A stretch of 64,000 nucleotides of DNA from Lycium barbarum (Eukaryota > Streptophyta > Magnoliopsida > Solanales > Solanaceae): contig NC_083339.1 in the NCBI RefSeq assembly GCF_019175385.1, positions 52,226,596 to 52,290,595 on the forward strand, written 5' to 3'. The notes below the pieces were generated by a model. The model worked only from the letters and a program-made list of their open reading frames with translations. It was not told the DNA's origin and made no database searches. A program made the position numbers and the translations under genes. This document shows, in pieces, positions 1,357 to 33,833 of this stretch (its first letter is position 1; the number at the start of each line of letters is the position of its first letter).

Positions 1357-1360
1357 GAAG

Positions 1361-1372
1361 TGGTATCAGAGC
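1361..1372 (+). other. Primer-binding site of A1 (initiator Met tRNA)
   Basis: TGGTATCAGAGC lies 4 nt after the LTR end. It is the complement of the 3' end of plant initiator tRNA-Met, the usual primer for Ty3/gypsy chromoviruses. It is a tRNA-binding site in the retrotransposon RNA, not a tRNA gene. Confidence 0.95.
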
Positions 1373-1414
1373 AGTTCGCCCTAGGAAGTGTCTACGAGCC
1401 GTGTCTAGTAGAGC

Positions 1415-1453
1415 CTTGTTTATGGTGTGTTGCGCGCCACGCTAATAAACAAG
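1415..1453 (+). other. Leader hairpin with palindromic apical loop (A1)
   Basis: CTTGTTTAT (1415-1423) pairs with ATAAACAAG (1445-1453). An inner six-pair stem (GGTGTG with CACGCT, including G-U pairs) closes an 8-nt apical loop, TT plus GCGCGC (palindrome 1432-1437). It lies 42 nt downstream of the primer site and is identical to the hairpin in A2. A role in RNA dimerisation is inferred. Confidence 0.6.
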
Positions 1454-1579
1454 AGGCTACAGGGCATTTAGGAAAATGACCATCCTTCTTCTCATGAATC
1501 GTGCGATAGAGCCATGTCTAGGATTATATCATCCCTAAAAGTGCGTTTTGGTTTCAGAAAAATGCCGCCGAAAGGAAAA

Positions 1580-1584
1580 GCTAC
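1580..1584. repeat. Target-site duplication gctac, left of solo LTR S
   Basis: gctac at 1580-1584 is repeated at 4905-4909. Removing 1585-4909 restores continuity with the A2 gag sequence, which proves insertion into an existing A1 copy. Confidence 0.9.
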
Positions 1585-1630
1585 CTGCCATTGATATGGG
1601 TCCAAGCCCATGTGGGATTAATTTGTAAAA

Positions 1631-1638
1631 TATAAAAG
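1631..1638 (+). promoter_or_regulatory. TATA box of LTR S
   Basis: TATAAAAG, 261 bp upstream of the donor-like GTATGA at 1892. This spacing is shared by the other LTR families here. Confidence 0.5.
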
Positions 1639-3844
1639 ATGGATATGTCATCTTTATCTCATGACACTTCTAGAAAATTCAAGAAAAGAAGAACAAAGAA
1701 AGATGGAGAAAAGCCCTTGAGGCTTTCGTCCATAGTGAAAATCCAAGAGAAAAATTGCTAAAAATTTCTCCAAAAATCACTTTCTACTCCTTGGAGGGTG
1801 CATAACAACATGGTGGAGTTATTGGAGTGGTAGAAACAAGTATTGGTTCAAGGTGCCAAGCATAGCTAGCTTGAGTAGCTAAGTAAGAGAGGTATGATTC
1901 AAGCTTACTTTTCATGTCTTATGAATGGTTTATATGTGTTGTTGTATGCCATAATGGATGAAACTCATGAAGGGAGTGGATATAGCATGTAGCCGTGCAT
2001 GTGTGTATATATGTAGGAGTTATGTTTCAATTATTTCATCTAGTATTTGGTAGTTATTGTTGTGAATTATATGTGGAAAATGGAAGTTGAATGAGTTTGG
2101 AGAATATTGATGTTGTGATTGTGGCCGTGAGGTGTATAGTGTGTGCATGGCCGTGTATATTGTATGTATAGTAGTGTATATGTGTTGAAGCATGAAGAAA
2201 TGGTAAGCAAGTGCTAGTTAGTATTTTGGTTGTTGTGTTGATTGATAATGGTGGCCGAATGTAGTGTTGTTGTGTTGGACAATCGAATTGATTTTTATGT
2301 AGTGTTTGATTGTTGTGGTCATGGATTCCATAATAAAAATGAAGTTGTAATCATCGTAGATTTCATATCGCAAATAAAGGTTTGATAACTTTGGTGAAGT
2401 ATTGATAATTGGGAGATTATGTATATTGAAGGAAATATGTGAATTGTTAGTGCGATTGTTGAATTATGTTAATAGTTTGGCCGGGTTTGAATTCCCGGAT
2501 TGTGTTTGATGAGAATTTGACTAAATTGAATGTCGAGGATGGTATATTTACAGAGGAAATGCTGCCGAAATTTCGGTAGCAAAATGTTTCCTTAAGGTTT
2601 TGACTCTAAGTATACTAATGAAAGTTTTGGTAAAAATGACCAATTCGCAGATTTTGACGAAATTGTGACGTGAATTTGGAATAGCTAAAGGAGCGGAAAG
2701 AGGTATGTAAGGCTTCACCCTTCTTTCTATGGCATGTCTTAGATATAATAAGTTGGGTACGAGCCTCGGGGACAACCCTATTCCCCGGAATCCGCACCTA
2801 AAGTTTTCCACTTTTTGTTCAGTCGAATTGAACTAGAAAGTGTGCAAAATGATAGAAAGACCTCCTAGACCCCTATAACTTGCGCAAATGGGACCCGATT
2901 ACCCTAGAACCCTCACAGGTAATGACATGACATGTAACATATGTAAATAGTATACGCTACCTCATCCGGCCCGAGGTGGGCCCGTTACTCCCGGACTTTC
3001 CTATAGTCTTGGTTGACGTACTTGAAGTGAATTCAAAGGGGACCTTTGATCCCGACCTCGCCACCAAATGATAAGTACTAGGACTACCCTAACGAGAATG
3101 TTTCAATGGGGATAATGATAACGACAATGTTAGACAAGAGAATGTGCTTATGATAAGTACGACCGGAACGATCCTATGACTGAGATTTCTAAGTTCAGGA
3201 TCCAATGTGAATACGAAATTTATAAACTAATTTCTAAATCGTATTTATATTTCCTAGTTATAACTTTATTTTCTAAGACTCCAAAGCCTACAACTGTCAC
3301 CTATAATGTCCACGATTTCATTCTACGGTTACTGTAACACTGTTCCTCGTTGATAGTCTCGCCTTAAAATACTCGTTCCTTCAAGGCGAGACAAAGCTAT
3401 CACTAGCATCCCGTAATGTAATCGGAGATCACCGACCTTATGTCACTCCGACGGATACTTGATTTTCCTTGGCTCTCTTGTGTGCCTATATGATATATGT
3501 ATATAAAACGGGTATACGTGTATGGATATGTATATATATATAAGATAAAGTAATTGTATATAAGAAATGTATATGTATATAAGATAAGTAAATGTATATA
3601 AGACAGGTTTATGTATACAAGCTACGTATATTAATAGAAAGATATGTATATGAATTTAAAAATATATACATGACCCTGGGATGGGGGAAAAAGGATATAT
3701 GGGGGAAAGGGAAGCGAAATATGTTTCACTGCCACCTGATCAGCTGGTTTATCATCCCGGACGCGGGGTGCCCGGACGCGGGATATATGGGTGAGCCGGT
3801 ACATATCTACATCGGCGCTATGTGGGTGAGCCGACATTGTTCGG

Positions 3845-4200
3845 CGCTATGATATGACCTACCATGTCATGACCAGACATGCTATGCTATGATATGACAC
3901 GATACGCTATGATACGCTATGCTATGATAAGAAAGGCTATGATATGCCATGACATGACATGCTATGATACGGTAAGCTATGCTATGATATGACAGGCTAT
4001 GCTATGATATGATAAGCCATGCTATGATACGATAAGCTATGCTATGATAAGACGGGCCATGCTATGATATGATAAGATATGCTATGATATGACAAGCTAT
4101 GCTGTGACATGATACGCTAGGATATAATACTTCCTATGACATGATATGCTACGATATGATATGATACGACACGCTATGATAGTGCAGAATGCAATATGAT
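3845..4200 (+). repeat. Degenerate GCTATGATATGA-type short tandem array in LTR S
   Basis: More than a dozen imperfect repeats of about 10-20 bp built from GCTATGATATGA, interspersed with GACAAGCTATG and GATACGCTATG variants. It is non-coding and confined to the downstream part of LTR S. Confidence 0.8.
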
Positions 4201-4904
4201 AAAAACATAACATGATTCAAACCCTGTTTTCCATGTCTATGAAAAAAGAAATGTTTCAAAGGAAAAAAAAAAGAAAAGAAAAGGGGACAAGCCTAAATGG
4301 CAGCAGCCTGAAAAAGGGCCTCCCTAAGTGCAGGTTACTTTCTTACCTCATTATACGTCCTACGACTCCATGATACTATTAATCGTACTCTATGTTACTA
4401 CTTGTATTATCTTCCATGTCTTACATACTCGGTACACTATTCGTACTGACGTCCCTTCTTGTGGACGCTGCAGTTTCATGCCGCGCAGGTCAGCAGACAG
4501 GTGAACGTGATCCTTAGAAGCTCTACCAGCCGCACTTGACAGCGCTCCAGTTGTTTCGGAGCCTCACTCCAGTGGTACTATTTTGTGTATGTATATTCGG
4601 GCACGACAGTACTCGGCCCTTTCTATGTATAAGTGTACTATGTCTAGAGGCTCGTAGACAGTTATGTGCAGTCAGTCAGGTACAGTTAGATATATGGTGT
4701 TTTGGCATGGTTGTTGTATAAAGTGATAACGAAGTTTACTAGTCTATGTTCATAATGACGCTGCTAATGTTAACGTTCATTAATGTTCGAAAAAACAATG
4801 GCACTGTCTATACGGCTTGCTAAGAGATAAAGGTAATATGATAGATAAGGGGTACTCGGTACAAGTATCGGGTACTCGTCACGGCCCCTAATCGGGTCGT
4901 GACA

Positions 4905-4909
4905 GCTAC
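4905..4909. repeat. Target-site duplication gctac, right of solo LTR S
   Basis: Right-hand partner of 1580-1584. Confidence 0.9.
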
Positions 4910-5679
4910 AGCTGCCCAGAAAGGCAAAGCTACGACGAAGAAGCGGGCAGAAAGGGAGCCTCCGGCGGGGGTAGAGGAAAGTGAATCGCAAAGTGAGGTC
5001 GTGCCCAATGTAGAAGAGCAGGGAGGAGCCTCAGCTCCGATTCCTTCACCGGGTGCTTCGGGTCAACAAGTGTCCGAGGCTATACACTTATTGACGCAGT
5101 TGGTTGCCGCTCAGGCACAACTGACAGAATGCGGGCCCAAGTGATCATTCAGCTAGTATAAGAGCCCGTAATTTCCTTACTCTAAATCCTCTAAGATTGT
5201 TTGGGTCGAAGCCGGATGAGGACCCACAAGGTTTTATCGATGAAATGCTGAGGACGTTAACACTTATGCATGCTTCTGAGACTGAATCTGTAGAGTTGGC
5301 CTCATATAGACTTCGCGACGTGGCGGTACTATGGTATAAGTATTGGGTGATAACAAGAGGGGAGAATGCACCACCTCCTGTGTGGCAAGAGTTTGTAGAT
5401 GCCTTTATTCATCACTACTTGCCACCTGAAGTCCGCCGAGCTAGAGCGGACAGGTTCTTGAATTTGAAACAGGGAAGCATGAGTGCCCGAGAGTATAGTA
5501 TGCAATTCAATTCATTGGCCCGGTATGCTCCGACTATGGTGGCTGACATGGGAGACCGAGTCTATAGATTTGTGAGTGGTTTAGGACCACACTTGTTCAG
5601 AGATTGCCTGACAGCCTCTTTGCAAGACGGGATGGATATTTCCCGGATTCAGGCCCATGCTCAGAACCTCGACGAATGA
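4910..5679 (+). pseudogene. A1 gag: N-terminus and capsid domain
   Basis: Resumes gag after the S insertion. The lysine/alanine-rich N-terminus (KGKATTKKRAE) is followed by a hydrophilic segment, then by the Retrotrans_gag-type capsid region (FGSKPDEDPQGFIDEML ... REYSMQFNSLARYAP) at 5197-5660. An extra T near 5125 throws the N-terminal part out of frame, with a stop at 5142-5144. A second shift near 5678 (GACGAATGA where A2 has GAGGAACTA) ends the capsid frame. Gag proteins of this class form the cytoplasmic particle and bind genomic RNA. Confidence 0.93.
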
Positions 5680-5812
5680 CAACGATAGCAAAAACGTGAT
5701 CGTGAGGGTGACAGAAGACAAGGTAAGAGGGCTAGATCTATGGGGCAGAGCAGTGAGTACCGAGTGGGACCGAGACAGACATATTCTAGGCACTCAGGTC
5801 AGTCAGTGATTA

Positions 5813-6280
5813 GTGCACCTCCTAGATTCTCAGATAGGAGGGTTGAACGTTCTACTCAGTAAGGCCAGGGGCAGAGTTCGAGGGCCTTCAGATTCGCAGT
5901 CCAGGGGAGACTTTAGCCAGAGGAGACCTCCAGTGCCGCGGTCTAGCCAGTGTGGCAAATTACATTCCGGACAGTGTCGTCAGGGTTCGGATGCTTGTTA
6001 TGCTTGCGGGCAAGTCGGTCACATGATGAGAGATTGCCCCTCAGCAAGAGATAGAGCTGGGACTCAGCCTACAGGTTCAGCAGCGGGTTCTTCTTCAGCA
6101 CGCCCGACAGCACATACTACTCAGACTACAGCAGGTAGAGGCAGAGGTAGAGGGGGAGCATATACTTCAGGTGCTGTTCAGCCCCGTGTGTATGCTTTAG
6201 CTGGGCGACAGGATCTTGAGACTTCCCCAGATGTTGTCACAGGTACCCTGACTATATTTTCCCGTGATGTATGTATATAA
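5813..6280 (+). pseudogene. A1 gag C-terminus: CCHC knuckle and linker
   Basis: Contains the knuckle [14 protein letters not shown] (CX2CX4HX4C complete) at about 5996-6037. Upstream is [11 protein letters not shown], and downstream a Gly/Arg/Thr-rich linker ([14 protein letters not shown]). The frame breaks just before the protease because the sequence has four extra bases near 6268 compared with A2. The knuckle binds RNA in related elements. Unlike the A2 copy, all four zinc ligands are preserved here. Confidence 0.9.
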
Positions 6281-6962
6281 TCTGATTGATCCGGGTTCTA
6301 CCTTCTCATATATTACTCCGTATATCGCTGATTGTGTTGGGGTGAGACCTGAGCCAATTAAACCTTTCGAAGTATTCACTCCTGTTGGTGATCCCGTAAT
6401 AGCGAGACAAGTATATAAGAACTGTGTGGTCATTATATGTGACTGTCAGACAAGGGCCAATCTAATTGAACTTGAGATGATAGATTTTGACGTAATTATG
6501 GGTATGGACTGGTTGGTATCATGCTATGCTAATGTTTGTTGCCGGACAAAGGTAATTCGTTTCCAATTTCCGGGAGAGACCATACTCGAGTGGAAAGGTA
6601 ATACAATTTCCCCAAAGGGTAGGTTTACTTCCTACCTTAAGGCGAGGAAGATGATAGCCAATGGTTATATTTGTCATCTAGTTCGGGTTCATGACACGGA
6701 AGCGGAAGTGCCAACTTTCCAGTCTGTCCCGGTAGTGAATGAATTCCCAGATGTGTTTCCCGACGAGTTACCAGGCCTTCCTCCAAAAAGGGAGATCGAC
6801 TTTGCTATTGATGTACTACCAGACACCGAGCCTATTTCTATTCCTCCGTATCGGATGGCTCCAGCAGAACTGAAAGAGCTAAAAGCACAGCTAAAGGATT
6901 TACTTGAGAAGGGGTTTATAAGGCCTAGTTCCTCACCATGGGGAGCACCAGTTTGTTCGTAA
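6264..6962 (+). pseudogene. A1 protease and start of reverse transcriptase
   Basis: Aspartic protease with the active-site motif [10 protein letters not shown] near the start, followed by GMDWL and the linker [15 protein letters not shown] that precedes RT in this lineage. RT begins at [15 protein letters not shown]. The frame ends at 6962 because a single base is missing in the codons for [12 protein letters not shown] (A1 reads GAPVCS then stop). Confidence 0.93.
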
Positions 6963-6985
6963 GGAAGAAATACGGATCGCTATGA

Positions 6986-7477
6986 ATGTGCATCGATTAC
7001 AGGCAGTTGAACAAACTGACGGTGAAGAACATATATCCCCTTCCTAGAATTGACGACTTGTTCGATCAGTTGCAAGGTGCTAAATGGTTTTCCAAGATAG
7101 ATCTGAGATCGGGTTATCATCAGGTGAGAATTAGGGAAGCAGATATTCCCAAGACTGCCTTCAGGACAAGATATGGTCACTACGAGTTTCGAGTAATGTC
7201 GTTCGGGTTAACGAATGCCCCGACAGTGTTCATGAATTTAATGAATAATGTATTCAGGCCGTTCTTGGACCTTTTTGTGATAGTGTTCATCGACGATATT
7301 TTGGTGTACTCTCGCACAGAATCAGAACATGCAGATCATCTAAGAATTTTTCTTAGCGTTCTTCGAGATCGAGAATTGTATGCAAAGTTTTCGAAGTGCG
7401 AGTTTTGCCTTAATTCTGTTGCATTCCTGGGTCATGTTATTTCAGATGATGGTGTCGAGTTGACACTCCGAAAATAG
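6986..7477 (+). pseudogene. A1 reverse transcriptase core
   Basis: Contains [14 protein letters not shown] sequence, [25 protein letters not shown] and the catalytic FIDDILVYS, the Ty3/gypsy form of the YxDD box. It ends at a frameshift near 7459, where one T is missing compared with A2. RT copies the genomic RNA into cDNA in the particle. Confidence 0.94.
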
Positions 7478-7482
7478 AAGCT

Positions 7483-8973
7483 GTGAAGACTTGGCCAAGA
7501 CCTACGACGCCTACAGAAGTTCGTAGTTTCCTTAGGTTAGCAGGATACTATAGAAGATTTGTAGAGAGCTTCTCATCTATTTCAGCCCCATTGACAAAGT
7601 TAACCCAGAAGTCGGCTAAATTCCAGTGGAGTGATGCCTGTGAGCGTGGCTTCCAAGAGTTGAAAAACAGGTTGACCTCAGCGCCGGTGCTAACACTTCC
7701 AGAAGGATCAGATGGCTATGTAGTGTATTGTGACGCCTCTGGTGTGGGATTAGGATGTGTATTGATGCAGAATGTGAAAGTTATTGCATATGCTTCGAGA
7801 CAGTTGCAAAAACATGAACAGAATTACCCTACTCATGATCTTGAGCTAGCTGCGGTCATTCATGCATTGAAAATATGGAGACACTACTTATATGGTGTGC
7901 ACGTGGACATCTATACGGATCACAAAAGCCTTCAATATATTTTCAAACAGAAGGAGTTGAACCTGCGGCAAAGGAGATGGTTAGAAGTACTGAAGGATTA
8001 TGATGTGAACATTCTATATCATCCAGGGAAGGCAAATGTAGTAGCAGATACCCTTAGCCGCCGATCGATGGGTAGTTTATGTGGAGTTCCTTCGGAAAAG
8101 CGAGAAATGGTTCGTGAAGTCCATCGGTTAGCAAGTCTCGGAGTACGGCCCATTGATTCAGGAGATGTAGGTATTAGCGTCAATGACCCCACAGTTTCAT
8201 CATTGAATCTAGAAGTGAAGGAATGGCAATATGAAGATCCTCAGTTAAGCCACTATCGAGATCTATCTCAGGAAAAGGAAGAGTCTCCATTCGAAGTCTC
8301 CATAGAAGGGGTTCTTAGATGTCGAGGCTGGCTATGTGTACCGAATGTGGCAAACTTGCGCCAACGGATTTTAGAAGAAGCACATTATTCCCGGTATTCT
8401 ATTCATCCAGGTGCAACCAAGATGTACCACGATCTCAGATTGGTATACTGGTGGGATGGCATGAAGCGAGACATAGCAGAATTTGTAGCACAGTGTCCGA
8501 ATTGCCAGCAAGTGAAGGCCGAGCATCAAAAGCCAGGAGGGTTATTGCAAGCAATGAAAATTCCTACGTGGAAATGGGAAGAGATTAACATGGATTTTGT
8601 GGTAGGATTACCGCGTACGCGAGGGAAGTATGATTCTATATGGGTGATCGTGGATAGACTCACGAAAGCAACTCATTTTCTCGCCGTTACAACCACATAT
8701 TCAGCGGAGGATTATGCTAAATTGTATCTCAAGGAGATTGTACGACTTCACGGTATTCCTTTGGCCATTATCACAGACAGAGGGGCACAGTTCACAGCCA
8801 AGTTCTGGAAGTCCTTCCAAGAAGGTCTAGGTACCCAAGTTAAGCTCAACACGGCGTTCCATCCGCAGACTGACGGACAAGCCGAACGCACTATTCAGAC
8901 CTTAGAGGATATGCTACGGGCATGTGTATTGGACTTTGGCGGTAATTGGGATGAGCATTTGCCTCTTATTTAA
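7483..8973 (+). pseudogene. A1 RNase H and integrase core
   Basis: RNase H motifs [46 protein letters not shown] and [15 protein letters not shown] are followed by the integrase HHCC finger ([11 protein letters not shown] ... CPNCQQVK). The DDE core follows: NMDFVVG, ITDRGAQFTAKFW, HPQTDGQAERTIQTLEDML. The frame ends at the nonsense codon of 8971-8973 (HLPLI then TAA). In Ty3/gypsy elements this part removes the RNA template and integrates cDNA. Confidence 0.95.
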
Positions 8974-9667
8974 TTTGCCTATAATAACAAGCTATCATTC
9001 CAGCATTCAAATGGCCCCGTATGAAGCCTTATATGGAAAAAAATGCAGATCTCCAATTGGATGGTTTGAAACCAGAGAAGTACAATTGATAGGCCCTGAC
9101 TTGATCCAACAAGCAGTTGAAAAGGTTAAAGTGATTCGAGACCGATTGTTAACAGCTCAAAGTCACCAAATGTCTTATGCAGATAATCGCCGACGAGATT
9201 TGGAATTTCAGGTGGGCGATTGGGTGTTCCTGAAGGTATCGCCGATGAAGAGAGTGATGAGATTTGGCAAGAAAGGAAAGCTCAGTCCCAGATATATCGG
9301 ACCCTACCGTATCATTCACAAGGTGGGTCGAGTAGCCTACGAATTGGACTTGCCTTCAGAGCTCGAATTCGTGCATCCAGTATTCCATGTTTCGATGCTC
9401 CGCAAGTGTATTGGAGACCCAACAAGAATAGTCCCGATTGATGATATGCAAGTAACAGAGGAGCTAACATACGAGGAAATGCCTATTGCCATTTTGGATA
9501 GACAAGTACGAAGGCTTCGGAATAAAGAGGTTGCTTCAGTCAAAGTTCTATGGCGGAACAATAATCGGGAAGAAATGACTTGGGAAGCGGAGGAGAAGAT
9601 GAAATCCATGTACCCCTATTTGTTCCAATCCCTAGAAGAGATTCAAGATGAGATGTCGATGGTGTAA
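8974..9667 (+). pseudogene. A1 integrase C-terminus with chromodomain
   Basis: Begins in the remaining integrase core (MAPYEALYG, CRSPIGWFE), then the GPY/F-type module (GKLSPRYIGPYRIIHKVG) and the terminal chromodomain-like segment (AILDRQVRRLRNKEVASVKV ... REEMTWEAEE). A +1 shift near 8991 separates it from the preceding frame. The chromodomain of chromoviruses is thought to guide integration to particular chromatin. Confidence 0.94.
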
Positions 9668-9834
9668 GGTATGTATGTTTTAATTTTATGTTTTTGGTCG
9701 TGTGTGGCCATAAAAGTGTTGATGTTGTGATATAGCCCTGTGAGGCGAAGATATTGTGTGTTGTTGTAATGGAAAGGTAGCATCCAAATCACAAAGGAAA
9801 CTCTGGCAAACATTTTCCAGAATCCCCGAGTGTC

Positions 9835-9856
9835 GAACATTCGAGGACGAATGTTC
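9835..9856 (+). other. Pre-polypurine-tract hairpin (A1)
   Basis: GAACATTCG, loop AGGA, CGAATGTTC: nine perfect pairs ending 1 nt before the polypurine tract. The same element, with small changes, precedes the tract in A2, B, C, F and X. Confidence 0.6.
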
Positions 9857-9857
9857 C

Positions 9858-9872
9858 AAAAGGGGGGAAGAA
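9858..9872 (+). other. Polypurine tract of A1
   Basis: AAAAGGGGGGAAGAA directly abuts the TG of the next LTR, as expected for the plus-strand primer. Confidence 0.92.
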
Positions 9873-10019
9873 TGTTACACCTCGGAAATTTCGCCGTACT
9901 TGTATGATGAGGTGAATGATGAAAAATTGAGTGAATGATGTTTTATTAAGTCGGGAATGGCTAATTAAGAATTTTTGGAAATAAGAAAGTCGCGGAAAAG
10001 TTTTCAGCACAGTGGTCGT

Positions 10020-10290
10020 ATATGGCACTATACGGCCCGTAAAGTGATTTGTGGACCGTATAGTGCAGTCGTCCTCCAGCTTGTCAAAAATCTCAACTTA
10101 CTGTAAATGTTGAATATGGTTAAATACGACCCAGTTTACAGCCCGTAAACTGGTTTACGGACCGTAAACCAGGTCGTAAACTGCCATGTCCACCAGCCAA
10201 ACTTTCTGTTTTTGGAATGCTTAAAAACGACCATAGTGGACGGACCGTAAATCAAAATACGGTCCGTATATGGTGGTTTACGACCACTGT
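10020..10290 (+). promoter_or_regulatory. Array of ACGG-N-CCGT palindromes in the A LTR upstream region
   Basis: Repeated short palindromes such as TTTACGGACCGTAAA, TACGGCCCGTAAA and TACGGTCCGTA lie within 270 bp upstream of the TATA box. The same type of array occupies the same place in LTR3 (about 17598-17870) and in LTR F (58801-59065). The position suggests promoter or enhancer sites; binding factors are unknown. Confidence 0.6.
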
Positions 10291-10330
10291 TCACCCCGAC
10301 AAAAATTCATTAAAGATCAGATTTTGTGAT

Positions 10331-10340
10331 TTTAAAAAGG
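10331..10340 (+). promoter_or_regulatory. TATA-like box of A LTR2
   Basis: TTTAAAAAGG about 458 bp into the LTR, followed by a pyrimidine-rich stretch. It is 261 bp upstream of the donor-like site at 10592. Confidence 0.5.
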
Positions 10341-11803
10341 GACTTAGGCTTCATTTCACTTCATTTTCATCCATACACCTCAAGAGACTTTCTAGAACTC
10401 TCCAAATAATTCCTCCACAAGAATTCAAGAGAATTAAAGGGAACATCAAGACCAACAACACTAATTTCATGGAATCAAGGGTAAGAACTCAATAAAGGGT
10501 CATCTAAGTGAAGAAATTCCCAAGAAGGTGGGACTAGGGTTTTGGCTAAATGAAGTATTTCAACTTAAGGATTGCTCAACCATCATCCAAGGTAAGTTTC
10601 ATGATTATTCCATGTTGTTTGAAGTATTGGAAAGCTTAGACACTTGAAATGTAGAAGAACATAGAAATGGGTCATTATTGAGTGAATAGTGGCATGAATG
10701 AATGATAGTGGAATCGAACTATGAATATTGAAGTGTTGTGAGTACTAATACGTTATAAATGATGTTTTTATCATGAAACAAGCATTAAATGCATGAAAAT
10801 GCAAGGATGAGCTAGAAGTAGAAATAAGGGAAAATTGGAGGAAAATGGTGGATTTTGCCAAACGCACGTAAATGACGATTGTCGATTATGATATTGCGAA
10901 TAATAATATGAATATTGGGAGTTGATATAGAACGTGAGAAAAGTAGTATGAGCGAAGGAAGCGTTGTCCGACTTCCCCTAGAATTAGCGACACGTTCTTA
11001 TAGTCAGTTACTAATGTTGATACGAATTCTCTTATGAAGGTAATGACGTGATATCGACGGAGAACAAGTGAGTGGTAGTCTTAGCTAAACGACCAAGGTA
11101 TGTGAGGCTAGTCCTTCTTTCTAATGGCATGAATCCTTTAACTTGAATCCCTATTCCTTTCATGAGTTCTTGCATTCTAAGAAGTTAAAAGCTCATACTT
11201 ATGAATGTCTATATGAGATAAGTTATACGATATGATGACACTAGAATGATGGTGATTTTATTCCTTGCCTACACTCACCTTATGTACTAGTCCTTTCAAG
11301 GTGAGGCGGAATGTCCATGATGGTTCCATAATGTAATCGGGGGATCACGACCTTACGTCACCCCGATAGAGTAAAGTTGATCATGAGTCAAATATACGCA
11401 TTATGATAAGATAAGTATTTTATGATAAGCATATTACTATGAGCATTTACATTGAGCATGTCATGAGCATTTCACACCGGGCCTAGTTGGCCGGGCAGAC
11501 ACCGCTTCGGCGGGCGGCGATATGGATACACCAAGACCTACGGGCGTGGGCAGAAACCACTAGTGGACGGCATGAGATGGAACCCCGGACGCGGGAGGCC
11601 TGGACGCGGGCTAATATTATTGATTATCACACCGTTCCGACATGGACGGACAGCTTGCATATGATGCATACATGTTATGATGATGAGTATGAGTAAGATA
11701 ACATGCATTACTTCATTTATGATTATCAGTCAGATCCATATGTCTCATGTTGATGTTATTCCCATATTACTGATGTTTCCTTTCATTATGTACGCCTCTC
11801 ATA

Positions 11804-11862
11804 CTCGGTACAATATTCGTACTGACGTCCTTTCTTCGGACGCTGTGTTCATGCCCACAGGT
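11804..11862 (+). other. Three-hairpin block in A LTR2
   Basis: Hairpin 1 is CGGTAC/GTACTG (11806-11824), hairpin 2 is GTCC/GGAC (11827-11841), and hairpin 3 is CTGTG/CACAG (11843-11860). The block recurs at the equivalent place in LTRs S, B, C, D, F and X with paired changes in the stems. Confidence 0.6.
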
Positions 11863-12274
11863 AGACAATGAGGAGAGCTTGGCCCAGGTCCTGAGTAGCT
11901 GTAAGCTGATAGATAGCACTCCATTGTTCGGAGGTGCTTATGACTATTCTTTTGATGTACATTCATATAAGCATATTTTGGGCATGACAGAGTCTTGTTC
12001 CGTCCATGTATTCATTATGTTAGTAGAGGCTCGTAGATACGCAGTGTGGGTTAGATGGTCTCACTAGATGTTTTCATATGTATGTGTATTATTTTGATGG
12101 CCAAGGGGAAAATGTATATAAAGTATTTATATATTGATTAAATATGATTTTCCTACAATTGGTAAGTAAATTTGATAAAAGAGTATTAAATGAGCGAGAC
12201 CAGCAGTAGAGTAAGCGGTGCTCGGTAATTGCTATGGGTACCCGTCACGGCCCCTAGCTGGGTCGTGACAGAAG

Positions 12275-12286
12275 TGGTATCAGAGC
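12275..12286 (+). other. Primer-binding site of A2
   Basis: TGGTATCAGAGC, 4 nt after LTR2, complementary to initiator tRNA-Met. Confidence 0.95.
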
Positions 12287-12328
12287 AGTTCGCCCTAGGA
12301 AGTGTCTACGAGCCGTGTCTAGTAGAGC

Positions 12329-12367
12329 CTTGTTTATGGTGTGTTGCGCGCCACGCTAATAAACAAG
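12329..12367 (+). other. Leader hairpin with palindromic apical loop (A2)
   Basis: Outer stem CTTGTTTAT (12329-12337) with ATAAACAAG (12359-12367). Inner stem is 12338-12343 with 12352-12357. The apical loop is TT plus GCGCGC (12346-12351). It begins 43 nt after the primer site. Confidence 0.6.
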
Positions 12368-12475
12368 AGGCTACAGGGCATTTAGGAAAATGACCATCCT
12401 TCTTCTCATGAATCGTGCGATAGAGCCATGTCTAGGATTATATCATCCCTAAAAGTGCGTTTTCGTTTCAGAAAA

Positions 12476-13780
12476 ATGCCGCCGAAAGGAAAAGCAACAG
12501 CTGCCCAGAAAGGGAAAGCTACGACGATGAAGCGGGCAGAAAGGGAGCCTCCGGCGGGGGTAGAGGAAAGTGAATCGCAAAGTGAGGTCGTGCCCAATGT
12601 CGAAGAGCAGGGAGGAGCCTCAGCTCCGATTCCTTCACCGGGTGCTTCGGGTCAACAAGTGTCCGAGGCTATACACTTATTGACGCAGTTGGTTGCCGCT
12701 CAGGCACAACGACAGAATGCGGGCCCAAGTAATCGTTCAGCTAGTACAAGAGCCCGCGATTTCCTTACTCTAAATCCTCCAGAATTTTTTGGGTCGAAGC
12801 CGGATGAGGACCCACAAGGTTTTATCGATGAAATGCTGAGGACGTTAACACTTATGCATGCTTCTGAGACTGAATCTGTAGAGTTGGCCTCATATAGACT
12901 TCGCGACGTGGCGGTACTATGGTATAAGAATTGGGTGATAACAAGAGGGGAGAATGCACCACCTCCTGTGTGGCAAGAGTTTGTAGATGCCTTTATTCGT
13001 CACTACTTGCCACCTAAAGTCTGCCGAGCTAGAGCGGACAGGTTCTTGAATTTGAAACAGGGAAGCATGAGTGCCCGAGAGTAGAGTATGCAATTCAATT
13101 CATTGGCCCGGTATGCTCCGACTATGGTGGCTGACATGGGAGACCGAGTCTATAGATTTGTGAGTGGTTTAGGACCACACTTGTTCAGAGATTGCCTGAC
13201 AGCCTCTTTGCAAGACGGGATGGATATTTCCCGGATACAGGCCCATGCTCAGAACCTCGAGGAACTACAACGACAGTAGAGAAGTGATCGTGAGGGTGAC
13301 AGAAGACAAGGTAAGAGGGCTAGATCTATGGGGGAGAGCAGTGAGTACCGAGGGGGACTGAGACAGACATATTCTAGGCACTCAGGTCAGTCAGTGATTA
13401 GTGCACCTCCTAGATTCTCAGATAGGAGGGTTGAACGTTCTACTCAGTAAGGTCAGGGGCAGAGTTCGAGGGCCTCAGATTCACAGTCCAGGGGAGACTT
13501 TAGCCAGAGGAGACCTCCAGTGCCGCGGTGTAGCCAGTGTGGCAAATTACATTCCGGACAGTGTCGTCAGGGTTCGGATGCTTGTTATGCTTGCGGGCAA
13601 GTCGGTCACATGATGAGAGATTTCCCCTCAGCAAGAGATAGAGCTGGGACTCAGCCTACAGGTTCAGCAGCGGGTTCTTCTTCAGCACGCCAGACAGCAC
13701 AGACTCCTCAGACTGCAGCAGGTAGAGGCAGAGGTAGAGGGGGAGCATCTACTTCAGGTGCGGTTCAGCCCCGTGTGTAT
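12476..13780 (+). pseudogene. A2 gag region (capsid plus knuckle)
   Basis: Capsid motifs FGSKPDEDPQGFIDEML, ELASYRLRDVAVLWYKNW and RFLNLKQGSMSARE, then ARYAPTMVADMGDRVYRF. Stops interrupt it at 13082 (TAT to TAG), 13277 (CAG to TAG) and 13447 (TAA). The knuckle near 13583 reads [14 protein letters not shown]: the fourth zinc ligand Cys is Phe here but Cys in A1, so RNA binding would be impaired. The Gly/Arg-rich linker (GRGRGRGG) follows. Confidence 0.93.
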
Positions 13781-14420
13781 GCTTTAGCTGGGCGACAGGA
13801 TCTTGAGTGTTCCCCAGATGTTGTCACAGGTACCCTGACTATATTTTCCCGTGATGTATATGCTCTGATTGATCCGGGTTCTACCTTCTCATATATTACT
13901 CTGTATATCGCTGATTGTGTTGGGGTGAGACCTGAGCAAATTAAACCTTTCGAAGTATTCACTCCGGTTGGTGATCCCGTAATAGCGAGACAAGTATATA
14001 AGAACTGTGTGGTCATTATATGTGACCGTCAGACAAGGGCCGATCTAATTGAACTTGAGATGATAGATTTTGACGTAATTATGGGTATGGACTGGTTGGT
14101 ATCATGCAATGCTAATGTTTGTTCCCGGACAAAGGTAATTCGATTCCAATTTCCGGGAGAGCCCATACCCGAGTGGAAAGGTAATACAATTTCCCCAAAG
14201 GGTAGGTTTACTTCCTACCTTAAGGCGAGGAAGATGATAGCCAAGGGTTATATTTGTCATCTAGTTCGGGTTCATGACACGGAAGCGGAAGTGCCAACTT
14301 TCCAGTCTGTCCCGGTAGTGAATGAATTCCCAGATGTGTTTCCCGACGTGTTACCAGGCCTTCCTCCAGAAAGGGAGATCGACTTTGCTATTGATGTACT
14401 ACCAGACACCGAGCCTATTT
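13780..14420 (+). pseudogene. A2 aspartic protease region
   Basis: Active-site [11 protein letters not shown] (Asp at 13871), then [13 protein letters not shown] and the linker [21 protein letters not shown]. It continues in frame into RT. Proteases of this type mature the Gag-Pol polyprotein. No stop falls within this segment. Confidence 0.92.
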
Positions 14421-15060
14421 CTTTTCCTCCGTATCGGATGGCTCCAGCAGAACTGAAAGAGCTAAAAGCACAGCTAAAGGATTTACTTGAGAAGGGGTTT
14501 ATAAGGCCTAGTTCCTCACCATGGGGAGCACCAGTCTTGTTCGTAAGGAAGAAAGACGGATCGCTACGAATGTGCATCGACTACAGGCAGTTGAACAAAG
14601 TGACGGTGAAGAACAGTTATCCCCTTCCTAGAATCGATGACTTGTTCGATTAGTTGCAAGGTGCTAAATGGCTTTCCAAGATAGATCTGAGATCGGGTTA
14701 TCATCAGGTGAGAATTAGGGAGGCAGATATTCCCAAGACTGCCTTCAGGACAAGATATGGTCACTACGAGTTTCGAGTAATGTCGTTCGGGTTGACGAAT
14801 GCCCCGGCAGTGTTCATGAATTTAATGAATAATGTATTCAGGCCGTTCATGGACATTTTTGTGATAGTGTTCATCGACGATATTTTGGTGTACTCTCGCA
14901 CAGAATCAGAACATGCAGATCATCTAAGAATTGTTCTTGGCGTTCTTCGAGATCGAGAATTGTATGCAAAGTTTTCGAAGTGCGAGTTTTGGCTTAATTC
15001 TGTTGCATTCCTGGGTCATGTTATTTCAGATGATGGTGTTCGAGTTGACACTCAGAAAAT
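14421..15060 (+). pseudogene. A2 reverse transcriptase
   Basis: Motifs in order: [68 protein letters not shown] and the catalytic FIDDILVYS at about 14870. One nonsense change, CAG to TAG at 14651 ([11 protein letters not shown] in relatives), is the only break in the RT core. Confidence 0.95.
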
Positions 15061-15700
15061 AGAAGCTGTGAAGACTTGGCCAAGACCTACGACGCCTACA
15101 GAAGTTCGTAGTTTCCTTGGGTTAGCAGGATACTATGGACGATTTGTAGAGGGCTTCTCATCTATTTCAGCCCCATTGACAAAGTTAACCCAGAAGTCGG
15201 CTAAATTCCAATGGAGTGATGCCTGTGAGCGTAGCTTCCAAGATTTGAAAAACAGGTTGACCTCAGCGCCGGTGCTAACACTTCCAGAAGGATCAGATGG
15301 CTATGTAGTGTATTGTGACGCCTCTGGTGTGGGATTTGGATGTGTATTGATGCAGAATGGGAAAGTTATTGCATATGCTTCTAGACAGTTGCGAAAACAT
15401 GAACAGAATTACCCCACTCATGATCTTGAGCTAGCTGCGGTCATTCATACATTGAAAATATGGAGACACTACTTATATGGTGTGCACGTGCACATCTATA
15501 CGGATCACAAAAGCCTTCAATATATTTTCAAACAGAAGGAGTTGAACCTGCGGCAAAGGAGATGGTTGGAATTGCTGAAGAATTATGATGTGAACATTCT
15601 ATATCATCCAGGGAAGGCGAATGTAGTAGCAGATGCCCTTAGCCGCCGATCGATGGGTAGTTTATGTGGAGTTCCTTCGGAAAAGCGAGAAATGGTTCGT
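15061..15700 (+). pseudogene. A2 RNase H
   Basis: [17 protein letters not shown] connection, then [49 protein letters not shown] and [16 protein letters not shown]. No stop is seen in this segment. Confidence 0.94.
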
Positions 15701-15949
15701 GAAGTCCATCGGTTAGCAAGTCTCGGAGTACGGCCCATTGATTCAGGAGATGCAGGTATTAGCGTCAATGACCCCACAGTTTCATCATTGAATCTAGTAG
15801 TGAAGGAATGGCAATATGAAGATCCTCAGTTAAGCCAGTATCGAGATCTATCTCAGGAAAAGGAAGAGTCTCCATTCGAAGTCTCCATAGAAGGGGTTCT
15901 TAGATATCGAGGCCGGCTATGTGTACCGAATGTGGCAAACTTGCGGCAA

Positions 15950-17250
15950 CGGATTTTAGAAGAAGCACATTATTCCCGGTATTCTATTCATCCAGGTGCA
16001 ACCAAGATGTACCACGATCTCTGATTGGTATACTAGTGGGATGGCATGAAGCGAGACATAGCAGAATTTGTAGTACAGTGTCCGAATTGCCAGCAAGTGA
16101 AGGCCGAGCATCAAAAGCCAGGAGGGTTATTGCAAGCAATGGAAATTCCTACGTGGAAATGGGAAGAGATTAACATGGATTTTGTGGTAGGATTACCCCG
16201 TACGTGAGGGAAGTATGATTCTATATGGGTGATCGTGGATAGACTCACGAAAGCAGCTCATTTTCTCCCGTTAGAACCACATATTCAGCGGAGGATTATG
16301 CTCAATTGTATCTCAAGGAGATTGTACGACTTCACGGTATTCCTTTGGCCATTATCACAGACAGAGGGGCACAGTTCACAGCCAAGTTCTGGAAGTCCTT
16401 CCAAGAAGTTCTAGGTACCCAAGTTAAGGTCAGCACGGCGTTCCATCCGCAGACTGACGGACAAGCCGAGCGCACTATTCAGACCTTAGAGGATATGTTA
16501 CGGGCATGTGTATTGGACTTTGGCGGTAATTGGGATGAGCATTTGCCTCTTATTGAATTTGCCTATAATAACAGCTATCATTCCAACATTCAAATGACCC
16601 CGTATGAAGCCTTATATGGAAGAAAATGCAGATCTCCAATTGGATGGTTTGAAACCAGAGAAGTACAATTGATAGGCCCCGACATGATCCAACAAGCAGT
16701 TGAAAAGGTTAAAGTGATTCGAGACCGACTGTTAACAGCTCAAAGTCGCCAAATGTCTTATGCAGATAATCGCCGACGAGATTTGGAATTTCAGGTGGGC
16801 GATTGGGTGTTCCTGAAGGTATCGCCGATGAAGGGAGTGATGATATTTGGCAAGAAAGGAAAGCTAAGTCCCAGATATATCGGACCCTACCGTAGCATTC
16901 ACAAGGTGGGTCGAGTAGCCTACGAATTGGACTTGCCTTCAGAGCTCGAATTCGTGCATCCAGTATTCCATGTTTCGATGCTCCGCAAGTGTATTGGAGA
17001 CCCAACAAGAATAGTCCCGATTGATGATGTGCAAGTAACAGAGGAGCTAACATACGAGGAAATGCCCATTGCCATTTTGGATAGACAAGTACGAAGGCTT
17101 CGGAATAAAGAGGTTGCTTCAGTCAAAGTTCTATGGCGGAACAATAATCGGGAAGAAATGACTTGAGAAGCGGAGGAGAAGATGAAATCCATGTACCCCT
17201 ATTTGTTCCAATCCCCAGAAGAGATTCAAGATGAGATGTCGATGGTGTAA
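15950..17250 (+). pseudogene. A2 integrase with chromodomain
   Basis: HHCC finger ([18 protein letters not shown] ... CPNCQQVK), then the DDE core with NMDFVVG, ITDRGAQFT and DGQAERTIQTLEDML. The GPY/F module GKLSPRYIGPYRSIHKVG and the chromodomain AILDRQVRRLRNKEVASVKV follow. It is broken by stops at 16021, 16036, 16204 and 17164 and by one missing base near 16268. Confidence 0.94.
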
Positions 17251-17417
17251 GGTATGTATGTTTTAATTTTATGTTTTTGGTCGTGTGTGGCCATAAAAGT
17301 GTTGATGTTGTGATATAGCCCTGTGAGGCGAAGATATTGTGCGTTGTTGTAATGGAAAGGTAGTATCCAAATCACAAAGGAAACTCTGGCAAAAATTTTC
17401 CAGAATCCCCGAGTGTC

Positions 17418-17439
17418 GAACATTCGAGGACGAATGTTC
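17418..17439 (+). other. Pre-polypurine-tract hairpin (A2)
   Basis: GAACATTCG AGGA CGAATGTTC, identical to the A1 copy. Confidence 0.6.
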
Positions 17440-17440
17440 C

Positions 17441-17455
17441 AAAAGGGGGGAAGAA
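17441..17455 (+). other. Polypurine tract of A2
   Basis: AAAAGGGGGGAAGAA abutting the TG of LTR3. Confidence 0.92.
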
Positions 17456-19849
17456 TGTTACACCTCGGAAATTTCGCCGTACTTGTATGATGAGGTGAAT
17501 GATGAAAAATTGAGTGAATGATGTTTTATTAAGTCGGGAATGGCTAATTAAGAATTTTTGGAAATAAGAAAGTCGCGGATAATTTTTCAGCACAGTGGTC
17601 GTATATGGCACTATACGGCCCGTAAAGTGATTTGCGGACCGTATAGTGCAGTCGTCCTCCAGCTTGTCAAAAATCTCAACTTTCTGTAAATGTTGAATAT
17701 GGTTAAATACGACCCAGTTTACGCGTAAACTGGTTTACGGACCGTAAACCAGGTCGTAAACTGCCATGTCCACCAGCCAAACTTTCTGTTTTTGGAATGC
17801 TTAAAAACGACCACAGTGGACGGACCGTAAATCAAACTACGGTCCGTATATGGTGGTTTACGACCACTGTTCACCCCGACAAGAATTCATTAAAGATCAG
17901 ATTTTGTGATTTTAAAAAGGGACTTAGGCTTCATTTCACTTCATTTTCATCCATACACCTCAAGAGACATTCTAGAACTCTCCAAATAATTCCTCCACAA
18001 GAATTCAATAGAATTAAAGGGAACATCAAGACCAACAACACTAATTTCATGGAATCAAGGGTAAGAACTCAATAAAGGGTCATGTAAGTGAAGAAATTCC
18101 CAAGAAGGTGGGACTAGGGTTTTGGCTAAATGAAGTATTTAGACTTAAGGATTGCTCAACCATCATCCAAGGTAAGTTTCATGATTATTCCATGTTGTTT
18201 GAAGTATTGGAAAGCTTAGACACTTGAAATGAAGAAGAACATAGAAATGGGTCATTATTGAGTGAATAGTGGCATGAATGAATGATAGTGGAATCGAACT
18301 ATGAATATTGAAGTGTTGTGAGTACTAATACGTTATAAATGATGTTTTTATCATGAAACAAGCATTAAATGCATGAAAACGCAAGGAGGAGCTAGAAGTA
18401 GAAATAAGGGAAAATTGGAGGAAAATGGTGGATTTTGCCAAACGCACGTAAATGACGATTGTCGATTATGATATTGCGAATAATAATATGAATATTGGGA
18501 GTTGATATAGAACGTGAGAAAAGTAGTATGAGCGAAGGAAGCGTTGTCCGACTTCTCCTAGAATTAGCGACACGTTGTTATAGCCAATTACTAATATTGA
18601 TACGAATTCTCTTATGAAGGTAACGACGTGATATCGACGGAGAACAATTGAGTGATATCTTAGCTAAACGACCAAGGTATGTGAGGCTAGTCCTTCTTTC
18701 TAATGGCATGAATCCTTTAACTTGAATCCCTATTCCTTTCATGAGTTCTTGCATTCTAAGAAGTTAAAAGCTCATACTTATGAATGTCTGTATGAGATAA
18801 GTTATACGATATGATGACAGTAGAATGATGATGATGTTATTCCTTGCCTACACTCACCTTATGTACTAGTCCTTTCAAGGTGAGGCGGAATGTCCATGAT
18901 GGTTCCATAATGTAATCGGGGGATCACGACCTTACGTCACCCCGATAGAGTAAAGTTGATCATGAGTCAAATATACGCATTATGATAAGATAAGTATTTT
19001 ATGATAAGCATATTACTATGAGCATTTACATTGAGCATGTCATGAGCATTTCACACCGGGCCTAGTTGGCCGGGCAGACACCGCTTCGGCGGGCGGCGAT
19101 ATGGATACACCACGACCTACGAGCGTGGGCAGACACCACTAGTGGGCGGCATGAGATGGTACCCCGGACGCGGGAGGCCTGGACGCGGCCAAATATTATT
19201 GATTATCACACTGTTCCGACATGGACGGGCAGCTTGCATATGATGCATACATGTTATGATGATGAGTATGAGTAAGATAGCATGCATTACTTCATTTATG
19301 ATTATCAGTCAGATCCATATGTCTCATGTTGATGTTATTCCCATATTACTGATGTTTCCTTTCATTATGTACGCCTCTCATACTCGGTACAATATTCGTA
19401 CTGACGTCCTTTCTTCGGACGCTGTGTTCATGCCCACAGGTAGACAGGGAGGAGAGCTTGGCCCAGGTCCTCAGTAGCTGTCAGCTGATAGATAGCACTC
19501 CATTGTTCGGAGGTGCTTATGACTATTCTTTTGATGTACATTCATATATGCATATTTTGGGCATGACGGAGTCTTGTTCCGTCCATGTATTCATTATGTT
19601 AGTAGAGGCTCGTAGATACGCAGTGTGGGTTAGATGGTCTCACAAGATGTTTTCATATGTATGTGTATTATTTTGATGGCCAAGGGGCAAATGTATATAA
19701 AGTATTTATATTTTGATTAAATATGATTTTCCTACAATTGGTATGTAAAATTGATAAAAGAGTAATAAATGAGCGAGACCAGCAGTAGAGTAAGCGGTGC
19801 TCGGTAATTGCTCCGGGTACCCGTCGCGGCCCCTAGCTGGGTCGTGACA
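17456..19849 (+). repeat. Family A LTR3 (3' LTR of A2, 2394 bp)
   Basis: TGTTACACC ... GTCGTGACA, immediately followed by X-family sequence (CTTAGTCATAG) that is continuous in the uninterrupted X copy at 26781. This identifies the A array's insertion point; the left target duplication is outside the window. TATA-like box at 17911-17920, donor-like GTAAGT at 18172, three-hairpin block at 19383-19440. Confidence 0.96.
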
Positions 19850-22800: not shown

Positions 22801-23004
22801 TTACCTTATCCAACATGTCTCTTTCGCACCGTAACTTACCTGTGTACCTTGTAACTGCCAATATCTTCGGTCGCTTTCTCCTGTCGATGTCGTTCTTCAG
22901 CTGAAATCAAAGGTTAGTATAAGGAATTTCATTTCCTATGACTGGGCTCTATCGCACGATCTTAGATATGAAAGAAAGGTAACATCCTAAATGTCCTGTG
23001 GCTT

Positions 23005-23044
23005 CCTGTTTATAGATGTGGTGCACAACACACCGATAAACAAG
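23005..23044 (-). other. Leader hairpin with palindromic loop (X copy 1)
   Basis: On the minus strand CTTGTTTAT pairs with ATAAACAGG through one G-U pair. The inner stem GGTGTG/CACATC closes a TT plus GTGCAC loop (palindrome 23021-23026). The palindrome differs from that of A by a compensatory double change. Confidence 0.6.
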
Positions 23045-23085
23045 ACTCTACTAGACATGGTCTGTAGACACTCCGAGGATGAACC

Positions 23086-23097
23086 GCTCTGATACCA
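23086..23097 (-). other. Primer-binding site of X copy 1
   Basis: GCTCTGATACCA on the plus strand is the reverse complement of TGGTATCAGAGC, 4 nt from the LTR edge. Confidence 0.95.
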
Positions 23098-23876
23098 CTT
23101 TTGTCACGACCCAACCCCGTAGGTCGTGACTGGTGCCCGACCTGGACACCCGTATACGCACCTATCAGATATAGTCACACTAAAACTACGACAATACGGA
23201 AACTTATAAAGGAACTGCAAAGTTCGTAACATCGTCACATATGTATATATTTCCAGATCACTGTCTGCTGAGGAGTCACAACTAATCATATCATGAAATA
23301 ATACGCAAGCCGACAAGGCTGCCATCACATATCAATATCATATGCAAGCCGACAAGGCTTCCACTACAGACGAACATCATACCACAGCACATCGTATAGA
23401 CACAGCTGAACAGAACCCATACACAACCCACACATATGTCTACAGACCTCTAAGAGTACGAATAGCGAAATATGACGGGACAGGGCCCCGTCGTACCCCT
23501 GGATAACATATACATATATATATCATAAGATTCAAACTAAAAGTCTAGACTCCGGAACAACGGAGCTCTCCAAGACAGCAGTAAGGGAATCCTAAGCTAG
23601 CGGATCACCATAGCGAGCATCTGCACCTGCGGGCATGAAACACAGCCCCCCCTCCCCCCCGAAGAAAGGGGGTCAGTACGGAATATGTACTGAGCATGTA
23701 AAGCATGAAATACAGTAAACAGGATCATAACTGAAATAAGGAGTACAGAAAATGAGTACACTAACCAGAATACCAAAATGCTTGCCTTTGAACATAAATC
23801 ATGCATGTCAATATCATATATCATATTCGGCCCATTATGGGACTCGGTGAACATGGTCGCCACCCCGTCTTTGGCG

Positions 23877-23974
23877 CCATAACACAGCATACTCCAGAAC
23901 ACAACATAACTCCGTAACACAGCATAACTCCATAACACAGCATAACACCATAACACAGCATAACACCATAATAT
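23877..23974 (-). repeat. 18-bp tandem repeat in X LTR
   Basis: About five imperfect copies of CATAACTCCATAACACAG followed by a short (AT)n. The right X LTR (40043-40150) has fewer copies and a longer (AT)n, showing slippage since the copies separated. Confidence 0.8.
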
Positions 23975-25234
23975 ATATATACCGTACCCGGCCCTCTAGT
24001 GAGGGACTCGGTGAACAATGCAGTGAAACTGTGCACGAATACATATCCTGGCCCGGGACTCAGTGAAAGACATATTGAGGCATGCACGAGCAGAGTAGTG
24101 AGAAACTATATGCAATTTAAAAACATTTTCAAAGACTCAATAGAATAATCAACACGAATTACCATTTGAAAATTAAGACAATAGTCAGTATCAAATACCT
24201 TTCGAATGTCATCGGAAACATATAAAACATCCCTTGACGTCATCATAAGTATATAACAAAGCCTTAAGGATCATAGTAATATGTCACTAGTTATCATAGA
24301 GTTCCTAAGAATGGGAACGGATATATATCGACTATTAACCAACGTACAGAAAACTGAAGAGGGAGGCTCAATCACTTGAGAATTGTAACATCAAGAAGTG
24401 AATAGGAATCATAAATATCACTCAAATCGTATGAATGGAATTACCCCAAAGTTCATATCGTTCATCACTTAAATCTAAGGCATGCCAAAAGAAAGAAGGG
24501 ACAACTTTACATACCTGTTAGCGGCTATTCGTAACCCGCTCGTCTCGTCGCTCTTTTAGCCTATTTAATATAAGAGTAACGTTATCGTTAGTAACTATAT
24601 TTTCTAGTCCACAAGTCTATAGCCCATTTCTTATAGAACCTATATTTCAGCTTATATATTCTCATTTAGGGTTTTGGTTAGTTAGGGACTTAACGAATAT
24701 CGGGCAGCATTTCCCATATATATTCGCCTAACCCGAATTTCTAATTGTCCTCCTGTCAACACAGAAATGCCAACAACAACGACATACACATAAAATTCTC
24801 ACAACTCAGCCCATAATATTTCTAACAACCCAACAACTTTTCTTAATACATTTCAACCCACAATTTCGCATAACAACGATTTTATGCAATTTTCTTCTTC
24901 CAATTTCGTCCAATCCAATTTTAATAATTCCACTACAATACTGTTAAAACAATTACACCATAAAACAAGAAAATCTTACCTTAATTTTCTCGGAGGAATT
25001 TCTACTCTTAATTGCTCCAACTTTCGCAATTTCTTCTTCCCCGATTCAATATCCAACGTTGCTATGACCTCCTTGAACTTGTAAATCATTTGGAACTTGA
25101 TAAAAATAGGCTATAAAATAATTTTTTCTCCATCACCATGGCTGGTCGAGACAGCCATAGGAGAGTTTCTTTCCATTTCTTTTTTTTTTCAACTTAACCT
25201 TGTGAAAATGAGTTGAATTACTCATCATGCAACA

Positions 25235-33790: not shown

Positions 33791-33833
33791 AGTCTCTACT
33801 AGACACGGCCTGTAGACATTCCGAGGACTAACC

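Follow-up and report, generated by a model that had tools for sequence, protein, structure and literature searches.

Three families of LTR retrotransposons in Lycium barbarum, here called A, B and X, carry around their primer binding sites a leader module whose conservation provides good evidence for a cis-acting RNA signal common to all of them. The module contains a hairpin that exposes a self-complementary, GC-rich hexamer in its loop. Judging from the predicted folds and from known systems, we consider it probable that two genomic RNAs touch through this hexamer and that Gag then captures the pair.

Retrotransposons of the window

The window, i.e. the whole stretch of 64,000 nt that was analysed, is filled with nested LTR retrotransposons of families A (+ strand), B (-) and X (-). 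The LTR ends of all three families are GTCGTGACA, and the primer binding site TGGTATCAGAGC comes after each of the five LTRs that open into leaders (TATCAGAGC is the complement of the 3' end of met-tRNA; PMC2829016). Exactly five perfect copies of this 12-mer occur in the window, at 1361-1372 (A1, +), 12275-12286 (A2, +), 23086-23097 (X1, -), 39240-39251 (X2, -) and 33834-33845 (B, -).

Family A is Ty3/gypsy. Its gag, RVP_2 protease, RT, RNase H, integrase and SH3_Tf2-1 domains were found by pooling the frames of the two copies A1 and A2, both of which are interrupted by stops. This is the domain set of a Ty3/gypsy chromovirus. Chromodomains turned up in neighbouring elements, at 43.8 and 57.5 kb, and not in the A frame examined. 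The lineage name of A would presumably be Tekay/Del. Among the best 120 of 7987 matches to the A RT, the top-scoring named one is from Tanacetum (64% identity), and a protein of Nicotiana sylvestris is 85% identical over 66% of the A RT.

The two A copies form an array at 1-19849 with three LTRs and two bodies. The middle LTR, common to A1 and A2, spans 9873-12270 (+), and the other two span 1-1356 (cut by the window edge) and 17456-19849 (both +). LTR pairs are 2.6-2.7% different over the stretch common to all three, the middle and right LTRs 2.2% different at full length, and the A1 and A2 bodies 2.75% different. These divergences are nearly star-like, as may be expected if a complex element inserted at once or was duplicated soon after insertion; template switching between co-packaged RNAs is a model for the single insertion of a complex element (PMC1950507). 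A1 itself contains an insertion at about 1585-4904 that closes with the terminus GTCGTGACA and has GCTAC on either flank; it resembles a solo LTR from yet another related family.

The X array (X1 and X2; 19850-41717, -) adjoins A at 19849 and is split by B. Its copies have a common LTR at 23102-25583 (-), and a further LTR belongs to X2 (39256-41717, -). X1-X2 is therefore a second tandem array with a common LTR, so that two of the three families form such arrays here. Element B (27811-37089, -) has LTRs of 3.24 kb at 27811-31047 and 33850-37089, mutually 99.07% identical, and is flanked by the 5-bp target duplication CATGC (27806-27810 and 37090-37094). Further related elements occupy 41720-61158 and contain two SH3/chromodomain frames, 43756-44631 and 57503-58378; the element at 41720 is apparently truncated at its border with X2. 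The primer site, searched with up to two mismatches, was not found in 41720-61158.

B contains an open gag frame (32247-33362, -) with the Pfam domains Retrotrans_gag and Ty3_capsid. The named organisms among the 115 relatives of its product are Lycium, Solanum and Nicotiana, except for three grass proteins (two from Eleusine, one from Oryza) and one filed under Corynebacterium. In tblastn, the A gag and part of the A gag-protease frame match B, RT queries gave no match, and integrase queries gave nothing better than E 0.035. As to X, tblastn with nine window ORFs found nothing below E 0.62, and none of eight stop-free frames of at least 80 aa matched Pfam at E 0.1; these frames came from X1 (from the A junction through the common LTR) and from the part of X2 left of B, the part right of B being covered by tblastn only. 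With neither gag nor pol found by these searches, X does keep the hairpin in spite of having no gag, as had been predicted. At 22860-22900 (-), after a TTTCAG motif, X is still like the start of the A gag, with the ATG absent; the sequence suggests that X derived from a coding ancestor by loss of gag.

In the classification of non-autonomous elements, a TR-GAG has gag or gag plus protease and no RT, RNase H or integrase, and a LARD is an LTR element of more than 2 kb with no coding domains (PMC6022998). B (gag, perhaps part of a protease) fits the former definition, and X (more than 2 kb, no domain found), as arrays interrupted by A and B, fits the latter; the passages of that source on the two classes are silent on a common leader module.

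The leader hairpin and its predicted fold

The original prediction placed a hairpin in each of the five leaders, and all five were located where it had put them: at 1415-1453 in A1 (+; loop TTGCGCGC at 1430-1437), 12329-12367 in A2 (+; palindrome GCGCGC at 12346-12351), 23005-23044 in X1 (-; GTGCAC at 23021-23026), 39159-39198 in X2 (-; GTGCAC at 39175-39180) and 33753-33790 in B (-; GTGCAC at 33769-33774). They start 42 (A), 41 (X) and 43 (B) nt after the exact TGGTATCAGAGC, in agreement with the expected distance of about 40 nt. On the coding strand of A and B the stem-loop is located between the primer binding site and the start of gag, X being without gag.

The loop consists of TT plus a hexamer, which is GCGCGC in A and GTGCAC in both B and X. 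The three inner stems, GGTGTG/CACGCT, GGTGTG/CACATC and GATGTG/CACATC, were also found as described. The outer stem needs a qualification: the hairpins are real in all five leaders, but two outer-stem pairs are broken in B. An unpaired C/T separates the two stems in X and B, and A has a single bulged A. Because the A1 hairpin is identical to that of A2, and the X1 hairpin to that of X2, the five copies amount to three hairpin sequences.

On the coding strand the hairpin is the minimum-energy fold in all five copies, at -14.5 kcal/mol in A (shuffle z -2.9), -14.8 kcal/mol in X (z -4.1) and -8.9 kcal/mol in B (z -2.3). It caps a longer predicted stem, RTGTCT-A-GTAG / CTAC-A-GGRCAT, giving about 25 pairs in total and a stem-loop of roughly 70 nt. 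This extended stem-loop spans 12314-12383 in A2 (+; -26.4 kcal/mol, z -3.35) and 39143-39213 in X2 (-; -30.7 kcal/mol, z -6.20); its z is -4.04 in X1, where one pair is broken, and -2.38 in B. When whole leaders were folded, 22 of 200 shuffles were at least as stable for A2 (z -1.24), 6 of 200 for X1 (z -2.40) and 169 of 200 for B (z +1.02), so that the B leader does not rise above its shuffles.

In the whole-leader folds the palindrome bases are computed to be unpaired, with a maximum pairing probability of 0.12 in A and 0.06 in X and B; each monomer thus presents, in these computed folds only, a self-complementary GC-rich loop of at least 6 nt. In the 200-nt X leader the loop hexamer is the only palindromic hexamer. 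An alternative inner hairpin, GGUGUG-UUG-NGCNCC, would hide the palindrome, and it is weaker than the main fold in both A (-12.8 vs -14.5 kcal/mol) and X (-9.3 vs -14.8 kcal/mol).

A DNA-level inverted repeat was rejected, since the sense strand folds better than the antisense strand by 4.3 kcal/mol in A and 4.8 kcal/mol in X; B does not follow, its antisense strand having the marginally more stable fold (-10.2 vs -8.9 kcal/mol for the sense strand). An upstream open frame was rejected as the reason for the hairpin on inspection by eye, an ATG being present in the A stem, elsewhere in the B stem and nowhere in X. The Rfam 15 scan of the A2 leader (12200-12520) returned no match at E 1.

A leader module common to A, B and X

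The hairpin belongs to a block of 170 nt that spans the final 13 nt of the LTR, the primer site, the hairpin and the ATCGTGCGATAGAGCC box, and lies at 12258-12427 in A2 (+), 22945-23114 in X1 (-) and 33693-33862 in B (-). Identity among A, B and X is 73-97% per segment, and the primer site accounts for just 12 nt of the block. For the pairs A2-X2, A2-B and X2-B, in this order, it is 90, 97 and 93% over the LTR end and primer site, 80, 80 and 88% from the primer site to the hairpin, 82, 74 and 92% over the hairpin, and 73, 73 and 83% from the hairpin to the ATAGAGCC box. In the same segment alignment and the same order, the LTR just upstream of the module is 43, 47 and 53% identical. Over 113 nt upstream in the LTR, the pairwise values are 40, 43 and 49%, vs a mean of 42-44% with one partner shuffled, and in the 38 nt past the box 17, 14 and 10 of 38 positions match in ungapped comparison, which is the level of shuffled sequence.

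Blastn (E 1e-10, at least 150 nt) gave the leader as the sole match between A and X. Besides the leader, A and B matched in part of gag (272 nt at 66%), and X and B matched in about 300 nt of the LTR. The contrast between the module and its much more diverged flanks points to a cis-acting RNA function, and X, in which no coding homology was found, has only this stretch in common with the coding A, as a cis-acting signal for priming, dimerisation and packaging predicts.

At the far end of the module, the box ATCGTGCGATAGA (12410-12427 in A2, with matching sites in the other copies) is invariant in all five leaders within an otherwise variable stretch, and is possibly part of the same signal.

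A putative kissing loop and its alternatives

RNA dimerisation, Gag binding and packaging in trans are what we infer from this arrangement. The hairpin would be the apical part of the stem-loop of about 70 nt in a cis-acting Ty3/gypsy leader module, and two transcripts would make their first contact via the exposed hexamer of the loop, which is GCGCGC for A and GTGCAC for the other two families. Gag would then take the RNA pair into the particle, where the initiator tRNA would prime cDNA synthesis at the neighbouring primer site. X, with neither gag nor pol, and B, with gag and no match to pol, would keep the module because it lets their RNA enter the particles of others. As a prediction from modelled folds the kissing loop is a good one, in that it fits the exposed GC-rich palindrome, its position in the leader, and the presence of both hexamers among the forms prevalent in HIV-1.

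The main rival sees in the stem-loop a Gag-binding packaging signal or a scaffold for reverse transcription, with the RNA recruited by the stem or by flanking boxes and the palindrome incidental. We regard this as a serious possibility, though an unlikely one. The conservation of the whole 170-nt block beyond the loop, up to and including its invariant box, is what such a signal would produce, and so is a leader found outside the window, described below, whose stable hairpin is closed by GGGA and which lacks a GC-rich palindromic loop. An incidental palindrome is harder to reconcile with a loop whose self-complementarity survives two changes, which is the sole palindrome of the X leader and which is predicted to be unpaired in all copies.

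That outside leader comes from bacterial genome assemblies, where 67 stretches match a search pattern and nine encode a related RT, presumably as eukaryotic contamination. The exact 12-nt primer site is present in two of the nine, L130 (825-1000) and L131, plant-like Ty3/gypsy elements that probably contaminate contigs registered under Geminicoccus and Solirubrobacter; their leaders are identical over 213 nt and therefore count as one. L130, a relative by its RT (56% identical), has a 13-bp hairpin with the GGGA loop after its primer site. A GC-rich palindromic loop was sought in the L130 leader and is absent from it, the only palindromic loops being AT-repeat ones about 175-197 nt past the primer site. 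Having GGGA instead of a palindrome, L130 indicates that the motif is not general; as its modelled fold illustrates, related elements can have a stable hairpin after the primer site that carries no GC kissing loop.

Other collections added no leader. Of the DNA-pattern scans of viral contigs, two gave nothing, a third gave eight stretches whose flanks, inspected by eye, were without a retrotransposon leader, and a further one gave at least 120 matching stretches; a scan of viral contigs with the A RT gave five pattern matches, none of them confirmed, and plasmids searched for related leaders gave no match.

It is also conceivable, and in our opinion improbable, that the hairpin is a by-product of ancestry or recombination, its stem and palindrome having been kept by chance at low divergence. 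The comparison is indeed small, with three hairpin sequences and only four distinct leader rows in the covariation alignment. With these four rows, covariation does not reach significance: RNAalifold reports double-sided changes at one pair out of 50, and column shuffles score as high as the real alignment in 389 of 500 cases for the stems alone and in 104 of 500 when the loop pairs were included. The A and X hairpins differ at 7 of 39 positions (6 transitions) with all 15 pairs and the palindrome intact; the probability of keeping them from A to X is 0.0025, or 0.027 when the changes are confined to the compartments they occupy. With no demand on stability, a hairpin with a palindromic loop and a stem of at least 5 bp turns up somewhere in the leader in 33-41% of the shuffled versions of A, X and B. 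Under tighter criteria, set post hoc (at least 6 bp, at least three G-C pairs, a palindromic hexamer in the loop, no more than 80 nt from the primer site), a comparable hairpin appears in 1.2-2.5% of first-order Markov leaders (A, X and B, 3000 each). On both strands of the window (128 kb), a scan for stems of at least 6 bp with loops of 6-9 nt gave 23 rows of hairpins with a loop palindrome of at least four G/C, some rows overlapping or mirrored; those of A1, A2, X1 and X2 take the first four places in stability, and B is unexceptional. Chance retention does not readily account for flanks that have fallen to the shuffled level next to a module 73-97% identical, or for extended-stem z values down to -6.2. 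It should be noted that the common leaders could be due partly to recombination among co-resident elements rather than to selection.

The hexamer had been described as a compensatory palindrome switch between families. One palindrome pair is altered on both sides in the leader alignment, i.e. two mirror positions change and self-complementarity is kept, so that this part of the claim stands; the compensatory part is weakened by its being one event between two lineages, with P of about 0.003-0.03 under simple nulls. The switch is thus real, but as a single event it is not to be called proven compensation. Moreover, both loop changes also keep the alternative inner hairpin in A and X, and therefore need not mean intermolecular pairing.

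Lastly, the leader structure could serve translation or splicing, in that it would lie in a retained intron whose removal at TTTCAG yields a gag mRNA without primer site and hairpin. The 3' splice-site-like TTTCAG (12466-12471, +, in A2, its splice function being inferred) stands exactly 38 nt past the box in all five leaders, X included, despite the diverged spacer, and precedes the gag ATG by 4 nt in A (12476-12478 in A2) and by 2 nt in B. Since the candidate donors, among them a donor-like CAG|GTAGGT in B 65 nt before the LTR end, show no clear agreement in position between the three families and were scored with an uncalibrated matrix, we find this explanation very improbable, in spite of CTAAC upstream of TTTCAG in B and X and of the spliced gag mRNA made by BARE1 (PMC3735527); it would in any case be compatible with dimerisation and does not exclude it.

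Comparison with known dimerisation sites

Retroviruses, Ty1 and Ty3 are already known to have dimerisation sites of this kind, and barley BARE is reported to have them too; the present hairpin would add a candidate in plant Ty3/gypsy elements. In HIV-1, SL1 is likewise a hairpin between primer site and gag with a GC-rich loop palindrome of 6 nt, and GCGCGC and GUGCAC are two of its three prevalent palindromes (PMC5874298). The HIV-1 palindrome has conserved flanking purines (PMC5874298), unlike the loops of A, B and X, which are UU plus the hexamer; any homology is hypothetical and dimerisation putative here. The predicted likeness to HIV-1 is borne out for the hexamers (PMC5874298): with UU on one side of the loop and nothing on the other, the likeness is one of the hexamer, not of the whole loop.

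Ty3, a Ty3/gypsy element like A, offers a parallel in PAL6 (CUGCAG), a palindrome at the apex of a short hairpin near the 5' end of the RNA; a palindrome in a hairpin is required for Ty3 dimerisation in vitro, and the other Ty3 palindromes are described as showing no significant change in the dimer (PMC11381356). PAL6, however, is inside the GAG reading frame, whereas the site here is between primer site and gag (PMC11381356). Ty1 SL1a/SL3a resembles our model in that a loop-loop contact is proposed as the start of dimerisation, and differs in being Ty1/copia and in using two different complementary loops instead of a single palindrome (PMC5454406).

Barley BARE2 is a gag-less element reported to have 'conserved dimerization and packaging signals' and to be packaged in trans in BARE1 particles (PMC3735527). 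BARE1 and BARE2 are thus, like A, B and X, a plant element with a gag-less partner, but they are Ty1/copia, and the account of their signals gives no hairpin for comparison (PMC3735527). For plant Ty3/gypsy elements, no dimerisation hairpin appears in titles or abstract openings among the matches listed by a literature search, which left subscription literature mostly outside. The available text of a 2025 review of the plant LTR retrotransposon life cycle contains no words starting with 'dimer', 'palindrom' or 'packaging signal' (PMC12786077). The selection of plant LTR retrotransposon RNAs for packaging seems to be little studied.

Significance

If the hairpins do kiss, their hexamer might act as a compatibility tag that sorts co-resident elements, with B, as the gag donor, and X (both GTGCAC) forming matched heterodimers and A (GCGCGC) partly excluded. 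A precedent of a kind is the divergence between Ty1 and Ty2 loops, which has been suggested to restrict co-packaging (PMC5454406). The computed duplex energies are -10.9 kcal/mol for A with A, -7.9 kcal/mol for B or X with B or X, and -6.6 kcal/mol for A with B or X. As the gap between -7.9 and -6.6 kcal/mol is small, the exclusion of A, on these three sequences, would be only partial, and we regard the tag as doubtful. If true, switching of kissing loops would separate retrotransposon families and would set which parasites ride with which helper.

A short leader common, within one window, to the pol-bearing A, the gag-bearing B and the non-coding X is a candidate for the signal through which a non-autonomous element could draw on another's machinery; it also offers a candidate kissing loop in plant Ty3/gypsy elements.
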